Origin: Phycisphaerae bacterium
GTDB taxonomy: Bacteria; Planctomycetota; Phycisphaerae; UBA1845; PWPN01
DNA length: 64,000 nt
Direction of reading: 5' to 3'
NCBI GenBank assembly: GCA_018003015.1
Contig: JAGNEZ010000010.1
Span: 62,001-126,000, forward strand
The notes below the pieces were generated by a model. It was not told the origin of the DNA. It saw only the letters and a program-made list of their open reading frames with translations, and made no database searches. A program made the position numbers and the translations under genes. How positions within the stretch are numbered: the first letter of the stretch is position 1; the number at the start of each line of letters is the position of its first letter. Shown piece after piece: positions 901 to 26,230 of the stretch.

Positions 901-3900
901 CTACACGACCGCCGCGCAGGGCAGATCGATGGTGAACGTCGTGCCGCGACCCGGTCGGCTATCCACCGCGATCAACCCGCCGTGCTCGGTGATGATACCG
1001 TGCACGATACTCAAGCCCAAACCGGTCCCGCCGCGGTGTTGGCGCGTCGTGTAGAAGGGATCGAAGAGGTGCTTGAGTTGGTCGTCGGTCATGCCCCGAC
1101 CCCAATCCTGCACGACCAATCGAGCGCCGAGCGATCCGCGGGCGGTTCGGATGCTGACCCGCCCGCCCGCCTCTGCCGCCTCGACGGCGTTCTTCACCAG
1201 GTTCACCACGACCTGCTCGATCTGCATGGGATTGATGATCGCGTTGGGCAGATCCGCGGCCAAGTCGGTCTCCAGGGCCGTGTCGCGATCCCGGGCGTAA
1301 CCCGACACCGCCTGGCACGCTGCGGTGACCGCCAAATTGAGGCTGGCGGACCACTTCTCGGTCGGCTCCTGCCGGGCGAACTGGAGGACGCCGCGCACGA
1401 TCTGTCCGCACCGCCGGGCGTTGCTCACGATGCGGTTCAGCGACTGCTCGATGAGCTCCGGTCCGCGGGGGTGGCTGCGATAGCGCATTGCCGCCTGGGC
1501 CGCCAGCAGCATCATACCCACCGGGTTGTTGATCTCGTGGGCGATTCCCGCGGCCAGGGTGCCGATCGACGCCAGCTGCTCCGCCCGCACAAGCTGCTCT
1601 CGGGAGGTTTCGAGCTCCATCGTTCGCTTCTCGACGAGCTCTTCCAGATTGGCCCGATGGCGGGCCACTTCCCGCTCGGCCCGGGTTCGGTCGGTGACAT
1701 CGCGGAAGCTCCAGACCCACCCGGCCCGCCGCCGGCCGATGTACTGGGGGAGGCAGGAGCACTCGAAGACCCGCCCGTCGACGGTTTCCACCGCCCCGCG
1801 ATTGTCCTGGGCCGAGCGCTCGTTCACCTCGCTCATCCGGGCCAGGAACGCGCCGGGGTCGCTGACTTCCTGCCCGGCATGTTCGAGGAAAGCGGCGAGG
1901 TTCTGGGCTGGTGGTGATCCGGCGCTGATTCCCCAGAGAACCAGAAACCTCTTGTTGGCCAGCCGGATCCGGCCGTTCGGATCGACGACCAGAATACCGT
2001 CCCCGGTGGACTCCAGCGTGGCTTCCAGCAGCGAGAGCGTCGCCTCCCGCTCCTGCTCGACTTGTTTGCGTTCAGTGATGTCCTCGACGATTCCGTCGTA
2101 GTGGACCATCCGTCCCTCGGTGTCGCGGTGGGGCACCATGGTGTCGCGGATCCAGCGCACGGATCCTCCGCGGTGGATGATCCGGTGCTCGATAGGCGGG
2201 ACGTCTTCCCCGCTCAGCAGTCGATTGATGTGGTCGCGGACCGCGGGGCGATCCTCGGGATGGACCATGGTGAACCACAGATGCGGGTCGCGGGCATAGT
2301 CTCCGGGGGTGTAGCCGGTGACGGCCGCGCAGCCCGCCCCGTGCTCGGTCCGGATCGCCACACCGTCGCGCGTATCGACCGCGTACCGATAGGAGCTGAC
2401 CGAAGCCAGCATGACCTGGTAGCGTTCCTGGCTTTCCTCCAGGGCCTCCTCGACCTTGCGGCGCTCGGCGATCTCCATCCGCAGCAAACGGTTGGCTTCC
2501 TCCAGATCCGCGGTTCGGGCCAGAACGCGCCGTTCGAGCTCGTCGCGCGCCTTGCTGAGCGTCCGCTCCGCCAGTTTGCGGTCGGTTACATCCTGTCCAT
2601 GGGCGTGAACCAGATCGTGGCCCACCAAGGGGTGGAATGACCAGCTCAGGGTGACGTCTTTCACCGTCTGCTCTCGCACCACGACATCGCGGTGCTCGCC
2701 AAGACACTGCCGGACGAAGTCGCGGAAGCCGGTCGGCAGCAGCAGCTCGGGCTGGTCGAGCGGCAGCCCCAGATGCACCAGGTATCTCCCGCAGGCCGGA
2801 TTCTGATAGGTGATGTCCCCGGCAGGTCCCAGTTCCATCACCGGAGAGGGGTCCTCTTGCGGGAAGCTCGACAGCCGCCGGATCTCCATTTCCACCCGTC
2901 GTCGCTCGGTGATATCGCGGCCCAGCAGCGCCACCCGCACGACCTGCCCGGAAGGCTCGCGGATCGGCCACAGGACATTGTCGTACCATATGCCCTGACG
3001 GTCGTCCTCAAACCGAACCGGTCGTCCAGATCTACATACCTCCTCCACCCACCTAGCCCAGTCGGCGGCCATCGGGGCGGCGACCAGGTTCCACAAGCAG
3101 GCGCCGACGACCTTGCCTCGTTCCAGCCCCAGCCGCCGGCAGATGGTCTCGTTGGCCTCGAGGATGGTGCCGCGGGCGTCCAGCAGCATGGCCACATCCG
3201 TCGGGGCGCTGACCAGGGCGGTCACGTCCCGCTCCTTATCCACGAGGTGGAGTTCGGCGAGCTTGTGGGCCGTCACATCCAGTACGCAGAGGACCAGCCC
3301 CACCACCTTCCCGGTGGGATTGCGGATCGGCGTCAACGTCCAATCCCAGTAGGTGGTACCCCGCTCGGGGTGGTCTGCAAAGACATACGGAGAAGCCGAG
3401 GCGGCGTAGGGTTCGCCCGTCTCGGCGACCCGGCGAAACAGCTCGGCACTCTGTTGGTCAGGAAAGAAATCGAAGAGACTCCTGCCGACGAAGGAGTCCG
3501 GTTCGTGTCCGCCAATCTCGGCGAATGTCTCGTTCACCCGCACCAGCTTCAGGTCCACATCAAGGTAAGCGATGGCCTGGTGGGTCTGGGCGAAGATGGC
3601 CTCCAGCAACTCGTTGCTGTCGCGGAGCGCGGACTCGACCTGGGTGCGATTGACGATTTCATGCCGCAGCTGCTGGTTGGCCTCGCGCAGCTCCGCCGTG
3701 CGCTGGGCCACTCTTTCCTCGAGCTCGAGCCTGGTACGGCTCAATTCCATCTCCGCGGCTTCGCGATCGCGGATGCTGTTCAACAGCCGCTCGATTTCGC
3801 ACTCGGTTCCCCGCTCGCCCGGGGACTCCTCGGGGGGGATGTAATAGGCGTTGCGGCACACCGTCTCGCGATAGACTACCAGCGGATGAGTCCGAATGAC

Positions 3901-15616: not shown

Positions 15617-17635
15617 GTGAAGCGTAACCCGACGATCGCGGAACTGAAGGCTCGTGTTCAGGAGCTCCAGACCCGGCTGGCGGAGCAGGAACGAGTTGAA
15701 GCGACGCTGGCCGAGAGCCAGCGAGTGCTGTCGACCCTGATCAGCAATCTGCCGGGCATGGTCTATCGCTGCCGGAACGACCGCTTGCGGACGATGTTGT
15801 ACCTGAGCGAGCAGGTGTTGAAGCTGACTGGTTATCCGGCGGCGGATCTGGTCGGCAATGCCCGAATCAGCAGCGCGGACCTGATCCATCCCGAGGATCG
15901 GGAGCGGATCTGGGAAGTGGTCCAGGAAGCCGTGAAGGTGCGGAAGCCATTCCACACCACTTTTCGGATCACGGCGGCGAATGGGGAGGAGAAGTGGTTA
16001 TGGGACAATGGGCAGGGGGTGTACGCGCCGAGCGGGGAACTCATTGCCATCGAGGGGTACATCACGGACATCACTCGCCGGACGCGGACGGAGGAGCACA
16101 GTCGTCTGTTGTCTCTCGCGATTGAGCAGGTCGGTGAAGGGATTGCGATCGTTGACCTCAAGCGGCGGCTTCTCTTCGTGAACCAGGCGTTTGCGCTGGC
16201 CCACGGGTACACCCCGGAGGAAGTCGTCGGGGAGCAGATAGCGATCTTCCACACTCCGGAGCAGATGGATGCGGTGTTGGCCGCGAACGAGGAGGCGGAT
16301 CGTGCGGGCTCTTTCAGGGGTGAGATCTGGCACGCGCGGCGCGACGGCACCCCTTTTCCGGCGTACATGGAGGTGTGGTTTCTTCGGGACGAGCGCGGGC
16401 GGGCGATTGGCGTGATCGGGACGTTGCGGGATCTGACTGAACAGCGGCGAGCCGAGGAGGAGCGGGCCCGGCTGGAGAACCAGCTTTACCAGATTCAGAA
16501 GCTGAAGGCGATCGGTCAGCTGGCCGGGGGAGTAGCCCACGATTTCAATAATCTCCTGGCGGTGATCCTGGGCAATGCGTCGGTGGTGCAGAGAGAGTCG
16601 TCTCTGCCGCCGAAAGTCCGGGAGGCGATGCTTGATATCGTCGAAGCTGCCGAGCGGGGTTCATCGCTTACCCGGCATTTGCTGGCTTATGCCCGTGGTG
16701 GTTTGCAGAAGCCTGTGGCGACGGACCTGAACCGGCTGATTCGATCGATGGTCCCGATGCTGGAGCGGGCAGCGCCGTCCGGGATTGGATTCCGTCTTGA
16801 TCTGGCCGGCGACCTGCCCACGGTGGTGGCCGATCCGCCGCGCATCGAGCAGATCGTCATGAATCTCTGCCTGAACGCGGTCCAGGCCAGCCAGCCGCCG
16901 GCGAGGATCGCGATCGTGACCCGCGCGGTGGACCTGGACGAGGCCCAGGCCGGCGAGCTGAGGTTGACGGCCGGGCCGTACATCCTTTTTCAGGTGGTCG
17001 ACCAGGGATGCGGTATCGCGTTGGAGCTGCGCGAGCGGATCTTCGAACCGTTCTTCACCACCCGGGAGATGGGCCGGGGCATGGGGCTCTCGGTCGCGCA
17101 CGGCATTATCGAGAGCCACCGTGGCCACATCTCGGTAGAGACTGAGCTTGGCCGCGGCTCCACCTTCTCGGTGTGGCTGCCGGCCTCGAATGAGCCGGAG
17201 ACGGCCCTGCAGGCGTCGGCGGACCTGCCCCGGCGGGAACGGCCGCCACGGGGCTCGGAGACGATTCTGATCGTTGACGATGAGGCGCCGGTGGCTCGGA
17301 CCATCGAGCAGATGGCGTCATCGCTGGGATACTGCGCGGTCTCCCACGGCAACGCGGACGGGGCGCTGGCTTTTCTGCAACATAATGCCGAGGACGTTGA
17401 TCTGGTGCTCTGCGACGTGAGCATGCCGGAGCGCAACGGCTGGGAGATTGCGGCGTTCGTTGCCGAGCGCTGTCCGCACGTGGCCGTGGTGCTTACCACC
17501 GGTGATGAGCGCATCAGCGATACGGAAGGCCGTCCGGGAGTGGCGGGTTTTCTGCACAAGCCGTTCACGCTCATGTCGCTGGCCAGGGCGATTCGGGCGA
17601 TCCTGGACAGCAGGGGGCCGAGGGAGGGGGCGTGA
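15617..17635 (+). CDS. PAS hybrid histidine kinase with C-terminal receiver
   Basis: A 672-residue cytoplasmic hybrid kinase that starts at GTG 15617 behind AAGGAAG. An N-terminal coiled coil (about 1-40) is followed by two PAS/PAC units (about 35-155 and 165-280). HisKA has the acceptor H308 in [10 protein letters not shown], the HATPase has an N box (MNLCLNAVQ) and GRGMGLSVAHGI, and a receiver starts at about 546 with acceptor D600 in LCDVSMPE and K648 in LHKPF. No transmembrane segment is visible. It stands between hemL and the convergent glpP gene, without a separate response regulator, so its output partner is unknown. Confidence 0.93.
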   Translation: MKRNPTIAELKARVQELQTRLAEQERVEATLAESQRVLSTLISNLPGMVYRCRNDRLRTMLYLSEQVLKLTGYPAADLVGNARISSADLIHPEDRERIWEVVQEAVKVRKPFHTTFRITAANGEEKWLWDNGQGVYAPSGELIAIEGYITDITRRTRTEEHSRLLSLAIEQVGEGIAIVDLKRRLLFVNQAFALAHGYTPEEVVGEQIAIFHTPEQMDAVLAANEEADRAGSFRGEIWHARRDGTPFPAYMEVWFLRDERGRAIGVIGTLRDLTEQRRAEEERARLENQLYQIQKLKAIGQLAGGVAHDFNNLLAVILGNASVVQRESSLPPKVREAMLDIVEAAERGSSLTRHLLAYARGGLQKPVATDLNRLIRSMVPMLERAAPSGIGFRLDLAGDLPTVVADPPRIEQIVMNLCLNAVQASQPPARIAIVTRAVDLDEAQAGELRLTAGPYILFQVVDQGCGIALELRERIFEPFFTTREMGRGMGLSVAHGIIESHRGHISVETELGRGSTFSVWLPASNEPETALQASADLPRRERPPRGSETILIVDDEAPVARTIEQMASSLGYCAVSHGNADGALAFLQHNAEDVDLVLCDVSMPERNGWEIAAFVAERCPHVAVVLTTGDERISDTEGRPGVAGFLHKPFTLMSLARAIRAILDSRGPREGA

Positions 17636-17655: not shown

Positions 17656-18276
17656 TCACGGCGTGGTATTCAGGTTCCACAGCTGCTCGTTGCTCGTGCT
17701 GACGGCTCGGCAGCCGCTCGCCAGGATGCGTTGAGCCAGATCGGCGCTGCGGACCAGGCCGCCGGCGATGCGTGGAATGGGCAGGGCACTGAACTGGGCG
17801 GCGGTTTCGATGGCGGCCACGCCGGGTATCAGCTCGATCACGTCGGGGTGGGCCTGGTCGATGATGTGCAGGCCGCGGTCAACGGCCCGTCCGTCCTGAA
17901 GGAAAAGCCGGAGAATGGCCGCCAGGCCCATTCGCCGGGCGGCGGCGATGAGGTGGGAGCGGACGGTAATGATGCCGTCGATTCGCTTGTGGCCCACCAG
18001 GTAGCGCAGGCCAGGTTCATCGCTGGTCAGGCCGGCAAGAAGATCGATGTGCAGCATGAGGGGAATGTCGGTGAGGGGCGGGCGAGTGAGACCCTCGAGC
18101 ACGCCGGGCAGCGCCGCCAGCTCGCCGCCCTGCAGGAAAATGAGGCTGGCCTGGGCCAAGGAAGTGCAGTCCATCTGGCCGACGTCCCAGACCACTGGGA
18201 TGATCGGCTTTGCGAACCATCTCTCGATTGGCTGGTGGCGGCGGTCCTTCTTCATGGCGTGGTCCCAGGTTGACAT
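17656..18276 (-). CDS. glpP: Glycerol-3-phosphate responsive antiterminator GlpP
   Basis: GlpP-family proteins bind glycerol 3-phosphate and the leader RNA of glp genes, letting polymerase read through a leader terminator. The 206 residues match this family through most of their length: MLHIDLLAGL, a DGIITVRSHLIAAARR stretch, LRLFLQDGRAV, PDVIELIPG, IAGGLVRSADLAQ and the tail AVSTSNEQLWNL. The fold is a TIM-barrel-like phosphate binder. The start is ATG 18276 or ATG 18255. The gene is divergent from the glycerophosphate operon, whose leader carries a strong intrinsic terminator. This context strongly supports the assignment. Confidence 0.9.
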   Translation of the reverse strand: MSTWDHAMKKDRRHQPIERWFAKPIIPVVWDVGQMDCTSLAQASLIFLQGGELAALPGVLEGLTRPPLTDIPLMLHIDLLAGLTSDEPGLRYLVGHKRIDGIITVRSHLIAAARRMGLAAILRLFLQDGRAVDRGLHIIDQAHPDVIELIPGVAAIETAAQFSALPIPRIAGGLVRSADLAQRILASGCRAVSTSNEQLWNLNTTP

Positions 18277-18298
18277 TGATGGATCAGCGTGTTAGTGT
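18270..18298 (+). promoter_or_regulatory. Candidate promoter of the glycerophosphate operon
   Basis: A perfect -35 TTGACA (18270-18275), a 17-bp spacer and TAGTGT (18293-18298) as a poor -10. It overlaps the glpP start codon on the other strand, so the two divergent units would share control sequence. It lies about 65 bp upstream of the leader terminator. Confidence 0.5.
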
Positions 18299-18361
18299 AT
18301 GAGTAGTGACAACTTGAAGCCAGTGTCTATCGCCTGGTGGGCCAGAGAATAAAGAGAAAGG

Positions 18362-18391
18362 CCCTCGCGACGCGATCGCGAGGGTTTTTTT
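18362..18391 (+). terminator. Leader terminator ahead of the glycerophosphate operon
   Basis: CCCTCGCGA (18362-18370) pairs perfectly with TCGCGAGGG (18376-18384) around a 5-nt loop and is followed at once by seven T residues (18385-18391). That is a textbook intrinsic terminator on the plus strand only. No plus-strand gene ends nearby (the last ends at 17635, beyond glpP), and the next start codon is about 115 bp downstream, so it is placed to attenuate the operon. GlpP would be the antiterminator. Upstream, GGGCC (18339-18343) can pair with GGCCC (18360-18364), which would take the base of the terminator stem and may be part of an alternative structure. Confidence 0.85.
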
Positions 18392-18507
18392 GCGCGCGCC
18401 GGATCGAGAACGGCGACGGTGTTCAGGTGTCGAGCGGCCGTCGCAGGTGGCGTGTTCGGTTTTGGGTTGTTGCCCTGGCGGGTGGGCAGACGGGGCGGGG
18501 TGAGGTC

Positions 18508-19440
18508 ATGGTACACATGAGGTGTGAAACCGGGATTCGGTTGATGGGAGCCCTGGGTATGGCTCTGCTGGCGGCCGTTGTGATCGGGTGCGGACGGCAT
18601 CCGTCGGGTGTTGGCGATTCCGGGTTCGCTTTGATCATTCAAGCCCATCGCGGGGCGGGCAACCTCGCCCCTGAGAATACGCTTCCGACGTTCGAGCTGG
18701 CCTGGGGGATTGGCACGGTTCCGGAGGCCGACATTCGCGTCACTCGGGATGGCGTGCCGGTGGCGTTTCACGACACCCACTTTGGTCGGCTGGTGAAGGG
18801 CGCTTCGCCGGTCCTGCAGAAGAAGGGGGTGGCGGACCTGACCTGGCAGGAGTTGTCCGCCCTGGATGTAGGAGCGTGGAGGGGGGACGAGTTTGTTGGG
18901 CAGCGTGTTCCGCGGATGGCGGACGTCTTTGCCGCCATGCGCGGGCGGCCTTCGCGGTCGTTGTACATGGACATCAAGAAGGTGCCGCTGGACCAACTGG
19001 TTGCCCTGGCTCGGGAGTACGGTGTCGAGGGCCAGCTCATTCAGGCCTCGACCAAGTACGACGAGGTGCGCGCGTGGAAGTCCCTTTCGCCGACCTCTCG
19101 AACATTGCTGTGGATGGGGGGTACGGAGGCGAGTCTCGGCAAACGATTGGAGGAGTTGCGGGCGGTCGATTTCGCGTACGTGGATCAGCTGCAGATCCAT
19201 GTGAAGGTCGGCGACCTGAAGGCGGAGGATCCATTCGTACCTTCGTCGGCGTTTCTGCAGTCGGTAGGCCAGGAGTTGGCGGCACGGAAGATCCTCTTTC
19301 AGACGCTGCCATCCGGCAGCAGCGATCCGATGGCCTTTCATCGGCTGATGGATCTCGGGGTGAACTCCTTCGCGACGGACGATCCGAAGATCGCCGTTGA
19401 GGCGGTGAAGGCGTATCTTCGGGCACGGGGCCGGGAGTGA
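18508..19440 (+). CDS. Secreted glycerophosphodiester phosphodiesterase (lipoprotein)
   Basis: The enzyme hydrolyses glycerophosphodiesters to glycerol phosphate and an alcohol. Catalytic family motifs are all present: QAHRGAGNLAPENT, EADIRVTRDG, PVAFHDTHFGR and the late segment FATDDP. From ATG 18508 (or 18517) the N terminus is a lipoprotein signal with lipobox VVIGC, so the mature enzyme should be membrane-anchored outside the cytoplasm. The frame is open back to 18337, but that region contains the leader terminator and codes for implausible protein. The start is preceded by GGGGTGAGG. First gene of the operon; its stop overlaps a GTG of the next frame. Confidence 0.9.
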   Translation: MVHMRCETGIRLMGALGMALLAAVVIGCGRHPSGVGDSGFALIIQAHRGAGNLAPENTLPTFELAWGIGTVPEADIRVTRDGVPVAFHDTHFGRLVKGASPVLQKKGVADLTWQELSALDVGAWRGDEFVGQRVPRMADVFAAMRGRPSRSLYMDIKKVPLDQLVALAREYGVEGQLIQASTKYDEVRAWKSLSPTSRTLLWMGGTEASLGKRLEELRAVDFAYVDQLQIHVKVGDLKAEDPFVPSSAFLQSVGQELAARKILFQTLPSGSSDPMAFHRLMDLGVNSFATDDPKIAVEAVKAYLRARGRE

Positions 19441-19460
19441 AGGGGTTTGGCGGCACGGCC

Positions 19461-20846
19461 ATGGACATGAGGCTCATTCAACAGCGGATTGCAGCGGCCT
19501 TGGCGATGGCCACGGACACGCGGGATCTCCGGCTGGGCGATGGTGTGGTGCGGGAGGCCGCGGAGGTCTTTGGCCGGTGTTTTGATGAGGACCGGGCCCT
19601 GCTGGTCGCCGACGCGAACACGTTCCAGGCGGCCGGTGGGGCGGTGGCGGGCGTGCTGCGCGGGGCGGGCATCGAATTGCCGGAAGCCCTGGTATTCGAC
19701 GAGCCTTCGCTGCACGCCGACTACGAGCACGTGGAGTTGGTGAAGCGGGCGATCGAGACGCGCGGGGGCGTTCCCGTGGCGGTGGGCTCGGGCACGATCA
19801 ACGATCTGAGCAAGCTGGCCGCTCACGAATGTGGACGGCCTTACATGGTCGTGGCTACGGCCGCATCGATGGACGGTTACACGGCGTACGGGGCGTCGGT
19901 GGTCCGGGATGGCTCCAAGCAGACGTTTTTCTGCCCGGCGCCGCGGGCGGTGATCGCCGACCTGGAAGTGATCTGCGCGGCCCCGGGCGAGCTGAACGCG
20001 GCCGGCTACGCGGATCTGCTGGCCAAGACCACGGCCGGGGCGGACTGGCTGCTGGCGGACGCTCTGGATATCGAGCCCATCGATGCCCGGGCGTGGGATC
20101 TGGTGCACAGGCGTCTTCATGACTGGACGGGCAATCCGGAGTGTGTGCGTCGCGGCGACCGGGACACGATCGTGGGGCTGGTGGAGGGCCTCATGATGAC
20201 CGGCTTCGCGATGCAGTGGTGCAAGTCGAGCCGGCCAGCCTCCGGCGCCGAACACCAGTTCAGCCACTTGTGGGACATGCAGGGCCACACCTATCGGGGG
20301 GGGACACCCCTGCACGGCCACAAGGTCGGGATCGGCACCTTGGCGGTGACGCTGCTGTATGAACGGCTGATGGCTGAGCCGCTGGCAGGGATCGGTGGGG
20401 GTTCGGTCGGCTGGCCCGATCTGGAGGAGCTCAGGCGGCTGGTCGAGTTGACCCATGAGAAGGCCGATTTGCGGGCCGTGGCGTGGCGCGAGAGCCAGGC
20501 CAAGCACATGGATCGGGAGACCTGGCAGCTCCTGCTCGAGCGGATACGGACGGCTTGGCCGGCGCTGCAGCATCAGCTTCACGAACAACTCGTCCCGGCT
20601 GACGAAGTCGGGGACATGCTCCGCGCGGCCGGAGCGCCCAACCATCCGGCGGACATCGGCATCGATTCCACTCGTCTCCGGCGCAGCTACATTGAGGCCC
20701 AGCAGATCCGGCGTCGGTTTACGGTGCTGGATGTGGCCGTACTGACCGGATGCCTGGTTCGCTGCCTGGATGCCATTCCTCTGGTGGGTGAGGGGGCGGC
20801 GGCGGTGGTGGGATCGGACGAATGCCGAACGCGAGGGGGGCACTGA
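19461..20846 (+). CDS. sn-Glycerol-1-phosphate dehydrogenase family protein (EgsA/AraM)
   Basis: A member of the iron-containing alcohol dehydrogenase-like family that interconverts DHAP and sn-glycerol 1-phosphate with NAD(P)H. This is the enantiomer used in archaeal lipids and, in some Firmicutes, made by AraM. Seen here: nucleotide-binding GSGTINDLSKLAA, PYMVVATAASMDGY, metal-site candidates in AGYADLLAK, SGAEHQFSHLWDM and HGHKVGIG. It is 461 residues from ATG 19461; a GTG at 19437 overlapping the previous stop is also possible. It sits between a glycerophosphodiesterase and a GlpT-like transporter, so it likely acts on imported glycerol phosphate. The distinction from glycerol dehydrogenases rests on these motifs and context. 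Confidence 0.88.
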   Translation: MDMRLIQQRIAAALAMATDTRDLRLGDGVVREAAEVFGRCFDEDRALLVADANTFQAAGGAVAGVLRGAGIELPEALVFDEPSLHADYEHVELVKRAIETRGGVPVAVGSGTINDLSKLAAHECGRPYMVVATAASMDGYTAYGASVVRDGSKQTFFCPAPRAVIADLEVICAAPGELNAAGYADLLAKTTAGADWLLADALDIEPIDARAWDLVHRRLHDWTGNPECVRRGDRDTIVGLVEGLMMTGFAMQWCKSSRPASGAEHQFSHLWDMQGHTYRGGTPLHGHKVGIGTLAVTLLYERLMAEPLAGIGGGSVGWPDLEELRRLVELTHEKADLRAVAWRESQAKHMDRETWQLLLERIRTAWPALQHQLHEQLVPADEVGDMLRAAGAPNHPADIGIDSTRLRRSYIEAQQIRRRFTVLDVAVLTGCLVRCLDAIPLVGEGAAAVVGSDECRTRGGH

Positions 20847-22264
20847 TGTTGGCCGCCGCCGTCAACCTGTTTCGGCCTGCGGGGCTTGCGGAGCGAAGGG
20901 TGCCCGCTGCCGAGGTCCAGGCTCACTACCGATATTGGCGACGGCGTATCCTGTATGCCAGTCTGATCGGCTATGCCCTGTTCTATTTGGTACGCAAGAA
21001 CCTGTCCCTGGCCATGCCGATGATGGAGAAAGACCTGGGGGTGACGAAGTCGGACCTGGGGTTGTTCCTGACGTTGCACGGGGTTCTTTACGGTTTCTCG
21101 AAGTTCGCCAACGGCTTTCTCGGCGATCGCACCAACCCGCGGTACTTCATGGCCTTGGGTCTGGTTCTTTCGGCGGTCATGAATCTCTGCTTCGGCCTGA
21201 GCAGCGCCGTTTATACGCTGGGTTTCTTCTGGCTGCTCAACGGGTGGTTCCAGGGGATGGGCTTTCCGCCCTGTGCCCGCAGTCTCACTCACTGGTTCGC
21301 GCCGGAGGAGCGCGGAACCCGTTTTGCGATCTGGAACACCTCGCATTCGATCGGGGCGGCGGCCGCACTGCTGTTATGCAGTTTTCTGGTCAGCGCCGAT
21401 TGGCGGCTGTGCTTCCTGGTGCCTGCGGTTCTGGCCTTCGGCGGTGCGGTGTTTCTCGTCGAGCGGCTTCGGGACACGCCGGGCTCGGTGGGTCTGCCGC
21501 CGATTGAGGAGTACGGGCAAGTGCCATCCGGAGGTTTCCCGGTCCAGGTGGTGGCTTGCACGGGTGGCGACGGTCTGGACCCCTGCCCGGTCGGGCAGGC
21601 CGGGTGCAGACGAGGGACCGAAGATGGGGATCTCTGGCGGTTCACGGTGCGGCAGGTGTTCCTCAATCCGCTGATCTGGACGGTCAGTGTGGCGAATTTC
21701 TTTGTCTACACGATTCGGTATGCCGTGCTCGACTGGGGTCCGACGATTCTGGCGGAGATGAAGGGGGTGAAGCTTCAGCATGCGGGCTGGACTGTGGCGG
21801 GCTACGAGGTAGCCGGCGTCTTCGGCATGCTGCTTGGTGGGTGGCTGACGGATCGGGTCTTTCGGAGTCACGGCGGGCGGACTTGTCTGGTCTACATGCT
21901 GATGTGTACGGTGTTTGTGGCCCTGTTCTGGAAGCTCGCTTCTCACTCGGCCGTGGCCAACGCGGCGCTGCTCGGTGCCATGGGTTTCTGCATTTACGGT
22001 CCGCAGTGTCTGGTCGGCGTGATCGCCGCCAATCTGGCGACGCAGCGAGCGGCCGCCACCGCCATCGGGCTGACCGGTCTGTTCGGTTATTTGAGTGGAG
22101 TCCTCTCCGGCTGGGGCTTGGGCTATCTGGCCGAGCATACCGGGTGGTCTTCAGTCTTCGGCCTGCTCATTGTCTCGGGTCTCATTGCGAGCGTTCTGTT
22201 CGCGCTGTGCTGGAACGCCGGTCACGGACCGAGCGAGAGCCGGGCGGTGGGCCCCGCGAGGTGA
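20846..22264 (+). CDS. GlpT-type organophosphate:phosphate antiporter, copy 1
   Basis: A 472-residue MFS protein of the OPA family, whose members import glycerol 3-phosphate or hexose phosphates in exchange for phosphate. Seen: YALFYLVRKNLSLAMP in helix 1, GVLYGFSKFANGFLGDRTNPR after helix 2, WFQGMGFPPCARSLTHWF, FAIWNTSHSIG, and a large mid-loop after GLPPIEEY. The start overlaps the previous stop (TGATG) with a GAGGGGGGC ribosome site, so it is translationally coupled. Context makes glycerol phosphate the likely substrate. A paralogue ends the operon at 24812-26230. Confidence 0.9.
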   Translation: MLAAAVNLFRPAGLAERRVPAAEVQAHYRYWRRRILYASLIGYALFYLVRKNLSLAMPMMEKDLGVTKSDLGLFLTLHGVLYGFSKFANGFLGDRTNPRYFMALGLVLSAVMNLCFGLSSAVYTLGFFWLLNGWFQGMGFPPCARSLTHWFAPEERGTRFAIWNTSHSIGAAAALLLCSFLVSADWRLCFLVPAVLAFGGAVFLVERLRDTPGSVGLPPIEEYGQVPSGGFPVQVVACTGGDGLDPCPVGQAGCRRGTEDGDLWRFTVRQVFLNPLIWTVSVANFFVYTIRYAVLDWGPTILAEMKGVKLQHAGWTVAGYEVAGVFGMLLGGWLTDRVFRSHGGRTCLVYMLMCTVFVALFWKLASHSAVANAALLGAMGFCIYGPQCLVGVIAANLATQRAAATAIGLTGLFGYLSGVLSGWGLGYLAEHTGWSSVFGLLIVSGLIASVLFALCWNAGHGPSESRAVGPAR

Positions 22265-22274
22265 GTCGACGCTC

Positions 22275-23120
22275 ATGAGTACGACGAAGCTGACATCGGT
22301 TCGACATCTCGCCCTGGATATGGACGGGACGATCTACAAGGGCGGGACCGTGTTTGAATTCACGTTGCCGTTCCTGGAGCGGATGGGCAAGCTGGGGATC
22401 GGCTACACATTCCTGACCAACAACTCTTCCAAGAGTGTGGTGGATTACCTCCAGTCCCTGGGGCGCATGGGTATCCCGGCCGATCGTGAACAGGTATTCA
22501 CCTCGACCGGGTGTGCGGTGTACTACCTTCGCCAGGCGCTTCCGACGGTGAAGCGGCTGTATGTGTTGGGCACGCCGAGCCTGCAGGGCGAGCTGGCCAT
22601 GGCCGGCTTCACCGTGGTCGGCGACGAGGAGGAGCCGGAGGGGGTGGTGGTTGGATTTGACACCGGGCTGGTGTACCCCCGGCTGTGCAAGGCGGCCTGG
22701 TGGATCAAGCGGGGCAAGCCTTTCATCGCCACTCACCCGGATCGGATCTGTCCGACGGATCGGCCGACGGTTCTGGTGGACTGTGGGGCGGTGTGCGCCT
22801 GCCTTGAGAGTGCGACGGGCCAGTCGCCCCAGGCGGTTCTGGGCAAGCCCGACCCGTGGATGCTGCGCGGAATCCTGGACCGGCACCGGCTGCAGCCGCA
22901 CGAATTGGCCATGGTCGGGGACCGTCTGTACACCGACATGGTCATGGCCCGCCGGGCCGGTTCCGTGGGTGTGCTGGTGCTGACCGGAGAGGCGACGGTG
23001 GATGACACCCTGCATCTGCACGAGCCGCCGGACGTGATCGTGCCCAGCCTGAAGGAACTGGGAGAGATGCTGGCCCAGGCCCGGGAGCAGGCCGGGGCCA
23101 TGGCCGGGTCACCGAGTTGA
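22275..23120 (+). CDS. HAD-IIA phosphatase, NagD / phosphoglycolate phosphatase-like
   Basis: 281 residues. The HAD motifs are clear: nucleophile motif LALDMDGTIYKGG (D15, D17), motif II TNNSSKS, the lysine in GKPDPWM and motif III AMVGDRLYTDMVMA. The cap type fits subfamily IIA (NagD, 4-nitrophenylphosphatase, phosphoglycolate/glycerol-phosphate phosphatases). In this operon it could dephosphorylate excess glycerol phosphate or repair a side product; the substrate is inferred only from position. The start at 22275 follows the GlpT stop by 10 bp; the frame extends upstream inside glpT but without family similarity. Confidence 0.88.
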   Translation: MSTTKLTSVRHLALDMDGTIYKGGTVFEFTLPFLERMGKLGIGYTFLTNNSSKSVVDYLQSLGRMGIPADREQVFTSTGCAVYYLRQALPTVKRLYVLGTPSLQGELAMAGFTVVGDEEEPEGVVVGFDTGLVYPRLCKAAWWIKRGKPFIATHPDRICPTDRPTVLVDCGAVCACLESATGQSPQAVLGKPDPWMLRGILDRHRLQPHELAMVGDRLYTDMVMARRAGSVGVLVLTGEATVDDTLHLHEPPDVIVPSLKELGEMLAQAREQAGAMAGSPS

Positions 23121-23191
23121 CGCCGTGCGGGGGCGATGGGCCTGGATGCTGGAAGGATCGGGCCGCACAGGCAGATATGGGAGTATTGGAG

Positions 23192-24736
23192 ATGACCGTA
23201 GAAGAGACGAAGACGGGTAGTCGTGGCGAGCGCATGGCGCAGCTGAGCCGAGCGACGCTGGACGTGTTGGTGGTCGGCGGCGGGATCGTGGGAGCCGGCG
23301 TGGCCCGGGACGCCGCCCAGCGCGGCCTGAAGGTTGGGCTCGTGGATCAGCACGATTTCGCGTTCGGCACGAGCAGTCGATCGAGCCGCCTGCTGCACGG
23401 CGGGTTGCGCTATCTGGCCCAGGGGCGCATCGGACTGGTTCGCGAGGCGAGTATCGAGAAGCGGGTGATCCATTCCATCGCTCCGCATCTGTCCGGCCCC
23501 CTGGCGTTCGTGTTCCCGACGTACCGCTGCCCGCCGTGGGGAGCCTGGGCCCTGTGGAAGTTGCGGATCGGCGTCAAGCTGTATGATCTGCTATGCGGCG
23601 GCCGGAACCTGGGCAGGTCCAACGCGTTCAACGCTCGTGGCCTGGAGCAGTACCTGCCCGGCATTGACACCAACCGGCTGACCGGCGGCGTGCGCTACTA
23701 CGACGGCCTGACCAACGATGCCCGACTGGTGATCGACACGTTGCGGTCAGCCACGAAGAGCGGCGCCGTGCTGGTCAACTACTGCCGGCTCGATCAAGCC
23801 CGTCCGCGCGGCAGCTCCTGGCAAGGTGTCCTTCAGGACCAGTTGGGCGGCAAGGAGTTGAGCGTGGATGCCCGTTGCGTGGTCAACGCCACCGGGCCCT
23901 GGGCGGATCGTGTTGAGCACAGCTCGGTCGAGCTGCGTCTGACCAAGGGCGTGCATCTGGTGGTGGACCGCGATCGGCTGCCCGTACCGGACGCCGTGGT
24001 CATGACCGAGGGAAGCCGCATTCTGTTCGCGATTCCCTGGGGTGAACGCGTGATCCTCGGGACGACGGACACGGATTACGGAGGCGCGATCGAGGACGTG
24101 AAGACCGAGCCGGGAGATGCCCGGTACATTCTTGAGGTCGTCAACGGTGCCTTTCCGGAGGCGCGGCTCTCCGAGCATGACGTGGTCAGTTCGTGGGCCG
24201 GCCTGCGGCCCCTGATCGCGGACCGGAACGGCAGGCCGTCGGACATCTCCCGGGCCCATGAGATTCGGTCGCCGGAGCCTGGCTGGCTGGACATCGCCGG
24301 CGGCAAGCTGACCACGTATCGACTGATGGCCGAGCAGGCCGTGGACCGTATCGAGGGCCAGCTTGGACGGGGCCGAACCGCGTGCCGGACGGCCGAGGTT
24401 CCGCTCCTGGAGTCCTGGGAGACTGAGGGCCTCAGTGGTATAGTGCCGCCGGACGTGAGCCGCCGGGCGGTGGAGCACTACTGCTCCAACGAATGGGCGG
24501 TGCACCTTGACGACGTCATGCTCCGCCGGGGCGGGTGGCACTACGATCGCCATGACGCCAAGGTGGTCGGTGAGCAGGTGGCCGGCTGGATGGCGGAGCT
24601 GCTCGGCTGGAACGTGGAGCGCAAGGAACAGGAGCTGGCTCGCTACCGGGCAACGGTTGGCCGAGTTGGCCGCTGGTGCGAGGGGCCCTTCACCCGAGCG
24701 ATGGGTGGCGGGACCCGGTCGTGCACCCCGGCGTGA
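23192..24736 (+). CDS. glpD: FAD-dependent glycerol-3-phosphate dehydrogenase
   Basis: Membrane-associated flavoenzyme that oxidises sn-glycerol 3-phosphate to DHAP and passes electrons to quinone. The FAD dinucleotide motif VLVVGGGIVGAGVARDAA begins at about residue 25, followed by the family signature SSRSSRLLHGGLRYL, ILGTTDTDYGG and SWAGLRPLI, and a C-terminal DAO helical domain. Start ATG 23192 has GGGAG 8 bp upstream; the frame is open back to 23117, overlapping the HAD gene. It is 514 residues, a normal GlpD length. With the glycerol-1-phosphate dehydrogenase at 19461, the operon encodes enzymes for both glycerol phosphate enantiomers. Confidence 0.95.
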   Translation: MTVEETKTGSRGERMAQLSRATLDVLVVGGGIVGAGVARDAAQRGLKVGLVDQHDFAFGTSSRSSRLLHGGLRYLAQGRIGLVREASIEKRVIHSIAPHLSGPLAFVFPTYRCPPWGAWALWKLRIGVKLYDLLCGGRNLGRSNAFNARGLEQYLPGIDTNRLTGGVRYYDGLTNDARLVIDTLRSATKSGAVLVNYCRLDQARPRGSSWQGVLQDQLGGKELSVDARCVVNATGPWADRVEHSSVELRLTKGVHLVVDRDRLPVPDAVVMTEGSRILFAIPWGERVILGTTDTDYGGAIEDVKTEPGDARYILEVVNGAFPEARLSEHDVVSSWAGLRPLIADRNGRPSDISRAHEIRSPEPGWLDIAGGKLTTYRLMAEQAVDRIEGQLGRGRTACRTAEVPLLESWETEGLSGIVPPDVSRRAVEHYCSNEWAVHLDDVMLRRGGWHYDRHDAKVVGEQVAGWMAELLGWNVERKEQELARYRATVGRVGRWCEGPFTRAMGGGTRSCTPA

Positions 24737-24811
24737 TGGCCGTTTTGCGGATCCGAGGGACAGAGTCGACAGCCCGCGCTGATCTCGGCGCGAATCAGGA
24801 GAATCGCCCGG

Positions 24812-26230
24812 ATGTTCTCAGCGATCCGCGCCTTTTTTGCCGCCGCACCGCACCTTCCCCGATTGCCGGCCGGCGAGGTTCGCCGGCTCTATCCGCGCTA
24901 TCGCTGGCGGGTCATGGAGGCCACCTACCTCGGCTACGCCACGTTCTACCTGGTGCGGAACAACATCTCCGTGGTTTCCAAGGACATGGAGGTGGCCCTC
25001 GGCTACAACGACGGCCAGATCGGCAGCATCCTGGCCATCACCGCGATCAGCTACGGGCTCGGCAAGTTTCTCATGGGGGCGGTGTCCGACCGCAGCAATC
25101 CGAGAGTCTTCATGGCCTTCGGGCTGCTGCTCACCGCCCTGTGCAATTTTGCGTTCGGGGGCGTGAAGGGCTTCGGGATTCACCTGACGCTCTGGGGACT
25201 CAACGGTTTCTTTCAAGGTATGGGCTGGCCGCCCTGCGGTCGGTCGATGGGCCACTGGTTCAGCCAGAAGGAACGAGGCCTGACGTTCAGCATCTGGAAC
25301 ACGGCCCACAACGTCGGCGGGGGAGTGGCGGGTTACCTGGCCGGTTGGGCGGCACTTCACTTGGGTGGCTGGCAGTACGCGTTTTTCGTGCCCGGGCTGC
25401 TGGCTCTGGTCGGATCGCTGTACCTCTTCTGGCGGTTGTGTGATACCCCGCAGTCGGTCGGCTTGCCGCCGATTGAGGAGTATGCCGCGGGTCATGGCGG
25501 CGGCTTCCCTGTCCAACCGGTCGTCGCAACGGAGACCGAGCAGCACGAGGCCGCTCCGGTCGCGAGCTGTGCTTCGGCTTCGGATGATGCCGAACGAGAA
25601 CTGGGTTTTGGCGAGCTTTTCGTCGACTACGTCTTGACCAACAAGTACGTGTGGCTGCTGGCCATCGCTAACTTCTTCGCGTACGTTTCCCGATACAGCA
25701 TGCTCGACTGGGGTCCCAAGTACCTGCGCGAGGTCAAGGACGCAACGCTTGTCAAGGGTGGCCTGGCGGTCATGGTCCTGGAGTTTGCGGGCATTGCCTC
25801 CACGATTGCCCTGGGTTGGGTTTCCGATCGAGTGGGCGGGCGGCGGGGCATGGTCGCAACGCTCTCGATGGCGCCCATCCTGTTGGCCTTCACCGCGATC
25901 CTGTTTATCCCGGCCGGGTACCTGTGGCTGGACATGGTCATGCTCGGCCTGATCGGCTTCTTCATCTATCCGGTGATCAACCTGATCGTGATCCAGGCTC
26001 TCGACCTGACCAGCAAGAAGGCGATCGGCACGGCCGCCGGTTTCATTGGCTTGCTGGGTTATCTTGGCCGCACCTGCCAGGCCCAGGGTTTCGGCTGGAT
26101 GCTGGACTATTTCAAGCCGCGATATGGAACCGAGGCGGCCTGGGAAATCGTGATTTACTCCATCCTGGGGTGCACCGCTCTGGCGGTCGTCTTGTTGGCA
26201 TTCACCTGGAAGCTCAGGCCCCGAGCCTGA
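24812..26230 (+). CDS. GlpT-type organophosphate:phosphate antiporter, copy 2
   Basis: 472 residues, OPA family MFS, clearly paralogous to copy 1: LGYATFYLVRNNISVVSKDM, LGKFLMGAVSDRSNPRVFM, FFQGMGWPPCGRSMGHWF, FSIWNTAHNVGGG and GLPPIEEYAAGHGGGFPVQ, the same loop as in copy 1. It ends the operon 75 bp after glpD. Two diverged transporters in one operon may divide labour between substrates, such as the two glycerol phosphate enantiomers or glycerol phosphate and another phosphate ester. That is inference. Confidence 0.9.
   Translation: MFSAIRAFFAAAPHLPRLPAGEVRRLYPRYRWRVMEATYLGYATFYLVRNNISVVSKDMEVALGYNDGQIGSILAITAISYGLGKFLMGAVSDRSNPRVFMAFGLLLTALCNFAFGGVKGFGIHLTLWGLNGFFQGMGWPPCGRSMGHWFSQKERGLTFSIWNTAHNVGGGVAGYLAGWAALHLGGWQYAFFVPGLLALVGSLYLFWRLCDTPQSVGLPPIEEYAAGHGGGFPVQPVVATETEQHEAAPVASCASASDDAERELGFGELFVDYVLTNKYVWLLAIANFFAYVSRYSMLDWGPKYLREVKDATLVKGGLAVMVLEFAGIASTIALGWVSDRVGGRRGMVATLSMAPILLAFTAILFIPAGYLWLDMVMLGLIGFFIYPVINLIVIQALDLTSKKAIGTAAGFIGLLGYLGRTCQAQGFGWMLDYFKPRYGTEAAWEIVIYSILGCTALAVVLLAFTWKLRPRA

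Follow-up and report, generated by a model that had tools for sequence, protein, structure and literature searches.

In Bacillus subtilis, antitermination by GlpP and glycerol 3-phosphate (G3P) is established for the glpD, glpFK and glpT leaders (PMC9604022, PMC7430163). We analyzed a 64,000-nucleotide (nt) stretch of a Phycisphaerae genome (contig JAGNEZ010000010.1, positions 62,001 to 126,000; hereafter the window), in which a glpP homologue stands next to an operon of six glycerophosphate genes, with an intrinsic terminator in the operon leader. This locus very probably encodes a GlpP-type transcription-antitermination system for the operon. As with B. subtilis GlpP and its glpD, glpFK and glpTQ leaders, a protein of family PF04309 accompanies a promoter and a leader with a predicted conditional terminator, and the targets are genes for G3P transport, G3P oxidation and a glycerophosphodiester phosphodiesterase (GDPD). 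Bacillota relatives (Cytobacillus, Paenibacillus and Listeria) have the same layout as the window, a GAGA-N-GAGA hairpin combined with a terminator. Unlike the B. subtilis system, the window system belongs to another phylum and a separate GlpP clade (~25-30% identity), and its glpP is divergent to the operon. The operon adds a gene resembling glycerol-1-phosphate dehydrogenase (G1PDH) and a HAD-IIA phosphatase, the glycerol-kinase-family genes of the host lack the leader element, and the proposed regulon takes in pseudopilin and secreted-protein operons.

Two further kinds of antitermination offer partial parallels. In BglG, SacY and LicT systems with their ribonucleic antiterminator (RAT) hairpins, as proposed for the window, an RNA hairpin that a protein stabilizes shares sequence with a terminator's 5′ arm. 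These proteins belong to an unrelated family, and LicT binds its antiterminator at two bulges (PMC7430163), whereas the window has a short stem that closes a purine loop containing two GAGA boxes. HutP, like the system proposed here, is a small-ligand-activated protein that prevents termination at repeated short purine-containing leader motifs. It too is unrelated to GlpP, and its motifs are NAG triplets (PMC7430163) arranged in two clusters, in contrast to two GAGA boxes in one loop. The literature we searched describes GlpP antitermination for Bacillus; the titles and abstracts of papers naming both GlpP and planctomycetes concern other subjects. As far as this literature shows, the occurrence in Planctomycetota, the explicit antiterminator model that spans phyla and has no Rfam counterpart, and the extended regulon are new. 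The novelty of the element itself may be limited, as the original papers on the B. subtilis glpD leader may already cover some of the Bacillus RNA target.

GlpP and two overlapping leader hairpins

The glpP gene (17656-18276, minus strand; an ATG at 18255 is an alternative to the start at 18276) is divergent to the operon, as the initial annotation of the window had stated. Its product matches PF04309 at 134.5 bits against a cut-off of 27 and is related to solved GlpP-family structures (PDB 3kts, from Listeria, and PDB 1vkf). That annotation had also proposed an alignment with Bacillus GlpP; aligned with Bacillota GlpP, the window protein has the same invariant or near-invariant GII, D-x-x-E, PG, AGGL and ST motifs.

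On the plus strand, a promoter with a -35 TTGACA (18270-18275), a 17-nt spacer and a -10 TAGTGT (18293-18298) shares -35 positions with the earlier of the two candidate glpP start codons. This promoter, already noted by its TTGACA, is absent from the list produced by a sigma-70 consensus scan of the window. We consider it credible because its position is conserved: a TTGA-type promoter with a recognizable -10 lies 43-63 nt 5′ of the leader element in 15 of 17 loci, the window included.

The element itself, GGGCC-[AGAGA..AGAGAAA]-GGCCC, spans 18339-18364 (plus strand), immediately 5′ of the terminator hairpin. Its GGGCC 5′ strand (18339-18343) covaries with the GGCCC 3′ strand (18360-18364), and the two strands of this antiterminator stem close a purine loop (AGAGAATAAAGAGAAA, 18344-18359) that contains two GAGA boxes and, judging by its conservation, is the putative GlpP recognition site. 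The terminator follows at 18362-18391 on the same strand (CCCTCGCGA-CGCGA-TCGCGAGGG, then seven T), where the perfect 9-bp stem with its 5-nt loop and T-tract has exactly the coordinates first reported. The antiterminator and terminator hairpins are mutually exclusive, because the GGCCC strand contributes its CCC to the start of the terminator 5′ arm. In folding predictions, nascent RNA ending at 18366 forms the antiterminator hairpin (by itself, -7.8 kcal/mol), and the complete leader forms the terminator (-16.1 kcal/mol). This predicted two-hairpin layout is the one expected for a default-off switch that would need a stabilizer.

The initial annotation was right about the terminator and less so about the extent of the regulatory site: the conserved element begins at 18339, upstream of the hairpin it had marked, and it mentioned neither the antiterminator strand, nor the loop with its conserved GAGA boxes, nor a second target site in the genome. 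Its remark that no plus-strand gene ends at the hairpin holds. The nearest such gene on the 5′ side, encoding a histidine kinase, ends at 17635, ~730 nt before the hairpin, which is therefore not the terminator of that gene. On the 3′ side, the GDPD start codon (ATG at 18508) lies 117 nt beyond the T-tract. A GCGCGCGCC tract (18392-18401, plus strand) directly after the T-tract is kept in about ten planctomycete leaders and not in Bacillota.

Conservation and covariation of the element

The host genome, a 6.86-Mb assembly whose named relatives are Phycisphaerae and other Planctomycetota metagenome-assembled genomes (MAGs), encodes one GlpP. The protein is patchy in the lineage: within the order, 8 of 114 genomes encode it, and 18 of 397 class genomes have it above the Pfam cut-off, with a long match in 17 of those 18. 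GlpP of the window type accounts for 14 of these 17 and also occurs at L004 and L006 (Pirellulales) and at other loci; at window-type loci, glpP and a HAD-GlpD or GDPD-G1PDH-MFS operon are divergently oriented. In a GlpP tree, an 18-member planctomycete clade (99/99) is separate both from Bacillota and from a second planctomycete clade (L050-L052).

The intergenic leaders at planctomycete glpP loci are closely alike, with a promoter, GGGCC-AGAGA-N-AGAGAAA-GGCCC or a variant, a GC-rich hairpin, a T-tract and often GCGCGC. The leader terminator, which the initial annotation had proposed to look for in relatives, recurs there: in front of GDPD or HAD-GlpD operons that diverge from glpP, both the stem and the T-tract are kept. 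Changes in the antiterminator stem are compensatory, yielding the pairs GGGCC/GGCCC, GAGCC/GGCTC, GGGCT/AGCCC, GGGCA/TGCCC and AGGCC/GGCCT. We compared each 5′ strand's best pairing with its own 3′ strand to that with the 3′ strand of every other element, re-optimizing the register for each pairing. The own-pairing sum was 394 for the 28 planctomycete-type elements (permuted mean 350, maximum 382, with 0 of 100,000 permutations reaching it) and 559 for all 43 elements (422 permuted), in a kind of test that kinship among elements inflates. At the sequence level, this covariation supports a mutually exclusive antiterminator. Tool-based pair counting on MAFFT alignments was dropped because short stems slip register.

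GlpP-type antitermination predicts an RNA target common to the glp genes of Bacillota, and we found the hairpin with its GAGA boxes at their glpF and glpD genes. The same layout stands 5′ of glpF and glpD in Cytobacillus, of a presumed glpF and of glpD in Paenibacillus, of glpD in Listeria and, in Enterococcus raffinosus, of an MFS gene that diverges from glpP. Chance matches in this pattern search were about as frequent as those of reversed-pattern controls in some Bacillota records, and we kept only matches upstream of glp or MFS genes. The element also lies downstream of glpP in Streptomyces clavuligerus (with a 7-bp stem) and in Acetoanaerobium, and upstream of an MFS gene in the second planctomycete GlpP lineage. 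The finder required a stem for the Acetoanaerobium, Streptomyces and Vescimonas elements, which are therefore not independent support for it. Since GlpP proteins of separate clades are accompanied by the same element, distant GlpP lineages share one RNA motif.

Some lineages have features of their own. In the second planctomycete lineage (L050, L051 and L052, all Phycisphaerae MAGs), glpP follows a GlpT-like MFS gene, and the element, which is present in additional copies 3′ of glpP, has a shorter loop (GGCT-GAGA-N-GAG-AGCC). Four leaders from Bacilli (L060, L063, L118 and L123) contain an additional conserved AAGTTAATA ~10-20 nt upstream of the GAGA hairpin, which we did not see in planctomycetes. 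Near the GlpP homologues of Klebsiella and Cupriavidus (L113, L115), we found no GAGA-box element; these proteins may work differently.

Several observations weigh against an antiterminator stem controlled by GlpP at all these loci. Several Bacillota leaders have an alternative stem of only 3-5 bp. The nine elements of non-planctomycete type that were found without a stem criterion are only modestly significant in the permutation test (656 of 50,000); the count was 5 of 50,000 in a mixed set that contained one planctomycete for each main stem type. For Bacillota glpF and glpD, the leaders compared are those of Cytobacillus, Paenibacillus and Listeria, not those of B. subtilis itself. In the window, the -10 hexamer TAGTGT is poor. 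Finally, L009 and L010 have no leader between glpP and HAD-GlpD, though elements are present at their adjacent secreted-protein or pseudopilin operons.

The closest rival explanation is that GlpP covers the terminator 5′ arm as a single strand, with the GGGCC/GGCCC stem incidental or an aid to presentation; the leader would still be a GlpP antitermination site. This model would account for the alternative stems of several Bacillota leaders, which are 3-4 bp long with a predicted energy near zero, and for the two-GAGA-box loop being the best conserved part among the 43 elements from three phyla. It fits less well with the compensatory stem changes across lineages and with own pairing in excess of permutations, and we judge it unlikely.

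Co-occurrence with GlpP and a proposed wider regulon

For one covariance model (R2), no sequence from the window's own family was used. With R2, the window leader scores 42.0 bits (E = 2.1e-10) and another host site (contig C52, 27683-27746) 43.8 bits, with the third-best match at 17.3 bits. Within the window's family, the glpP locus gives a match of 25.9 bits or more in all six members with GlpP, and the seven members without GlpP score at most 21.6. A second model (R1), which includes the window, gave a match of at least 47 bits in 14 of 14 class genomes with divergent-type GlpP and a maximum of 31.8 bits in those without GlpP, among the 397 genomes searched. The element is thus tied to GlpP genome by genome, as expected if the leader is its target. 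We took R1 matches of 24-32 bits in GlpP-less genomes as noise. In Rfam release 15, the window leader has no match at the gathering threshold, and at eight other element-bearing loci nothing matches the element, with only an unrelated transfer-messenger RNA in L108; sub-threshold resemblances to amino-acid leaders were rejected.

These distributions also bear on a second alternative, in which a different RNA-binding protein or a small-molecule aptamer does the recognizing and the element merely adjoins glpP. GlpP binding in the host is argued by analogy, which leaves room for such a recognizer. The genome-by-genome co-occurrence, the restriction of high-scoring trans sites to GlpP genomes and the occurrence of this motif at Bacillota glpF and glpD all point to GlpP instead, and a 16-nt loop would seem small for a metabolite aptamer. 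We regard this alternative as very improbable.

Away from glpP, elements precede a GDPD gene (L103), a G1PDH-MFS pair (L054) and a GlpT-like MFS gene (L149). Others stand before operons that combine a pseudopilin (N_methyl/DUF1559) with a secreted protein, in the host (L101), its sister (L102), L104, L105, L010, L009 and L147; secreted-looking proteins are also encoded 3′ of elements at L148, L150 and L151. The second host element (L101, positions 3684-3747) has its own TTGACA/TATACT promoter and lies just downstream of a secreted GDPD gene, before genes for a pseudopilin and for a large PKD/dockerin-like protein that is secreted. Neither of the two strong host elements is on a contig with the genome's FGGY-family kinases (best at C71:5684). 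An ordinary constitutive terminator, serving antisense or upstream transcription while the operon starts downstream of the hairpin, is the least probable account and can scarcely be right: a hairpin with a T-tract does resemble any intrinsic terminator, but the upstream promoter is conserved, the competing strand and loop are conserved with covariation, and the element recurs before unrelated operons in GlpP genomes only.

We favor the following model of GlpP antitermination. RNA polymerase would start at the TTGACA promoter and by default stop at the leader terminator (18362-18391), because the terminator hairpin is predicted to be more stable than the competing upstream hairpin. When G3P accumulates, GlpP would recognize the purine loop and its pair of GAGA boxes, and the G3P-bound protein would hold the GGGCC/GGCCC antiterminator closed, sequestering the terminator 5′ arm. 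Polymerase could then pass, and the six genes for glycerophosphate cleavage, import and oxidation would be transcribed. The second element would place the pseudopilin and secreted-protein cluster on contig C52 under the same control. From Bacillus, we infer the ligand, the contact of GlpP with the GAGA loop, readthrough and the polarity of the switch. By every feature checked in the sequence, the locus is a member of the GlpP antitermination kind, and each prediction testable in this way supports the reading of the leader that the initial annotation had advanced.

On balance, we lean toward a broader conclusion: that one RNA antiterminator outside Rfam, with a short covarying stem, a two-GAGA-box loop and a 3′ strand shared with or abutting the terminator, is the general GlpP site from Bacillota through Actinomycetota to Planctomycetota, and that the planctomycete regulon extends to pseudopilin-linked secreted proteins. 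The antiterminator model fits leaders in three phyla; it would extend GlpP control to Planctomycetota and make GlpP regulons predictable from sequence. If the conclusion is true, glycerophosphate sensing in planctomycetes is coupled to surface or secreted factors.

Genes of the glycerophosphate operon

Profile matches bear out the phosphodiesterase, two transporters and two dehydrogenases originally assigned to the operon, all on the plus strand. The first gene (18508-19440) encodes a lipoprotein-like GDPD (PF03009, 82 bits) and is followed by a G1PDH-like iron-containing alcohol dehydrogenase (19437-20846; PF13685, NF002022 under its cut-off, PDB 9h4x) and a first GlpT-like MFS transporter (20822-22264; PF07690, TIGR00712 under its cut-off). 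Next is the gene that completes the six, a HAD-IIA phosphatase (22257-23120; TIGR01460 above cut-off). Its PDB relatives include the G3P phosphatases 7po7 and 4i9f, and it is possibly a G3P phosphatase itself. The last two genes encode GlpD, a flavin adenine dinucleotide (FAD) G3P dehydrogenase (23165-24736; PF01266, NF008899 at 322 bits against a cut-off of 360), and a second GlpT-like MFS transporter (24812-26230; PF07690, TIGR00712 at 382 bits, under its cut-off).

In many relatives, a G1PDH homologue likewise lies within the catabolic operon predicted to be under GlpP control. This setting suggests that the G1PDH-like gene serves glycerol 1-phosphate breakdown, not archaeal-type lipid synthesis. 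A G1PDH homologue under a catabolic glycerophosphate regulator bears on whether such bacterial genes are read as archaeal-type lipid synthesis or as glycerol 1-phosphate use.

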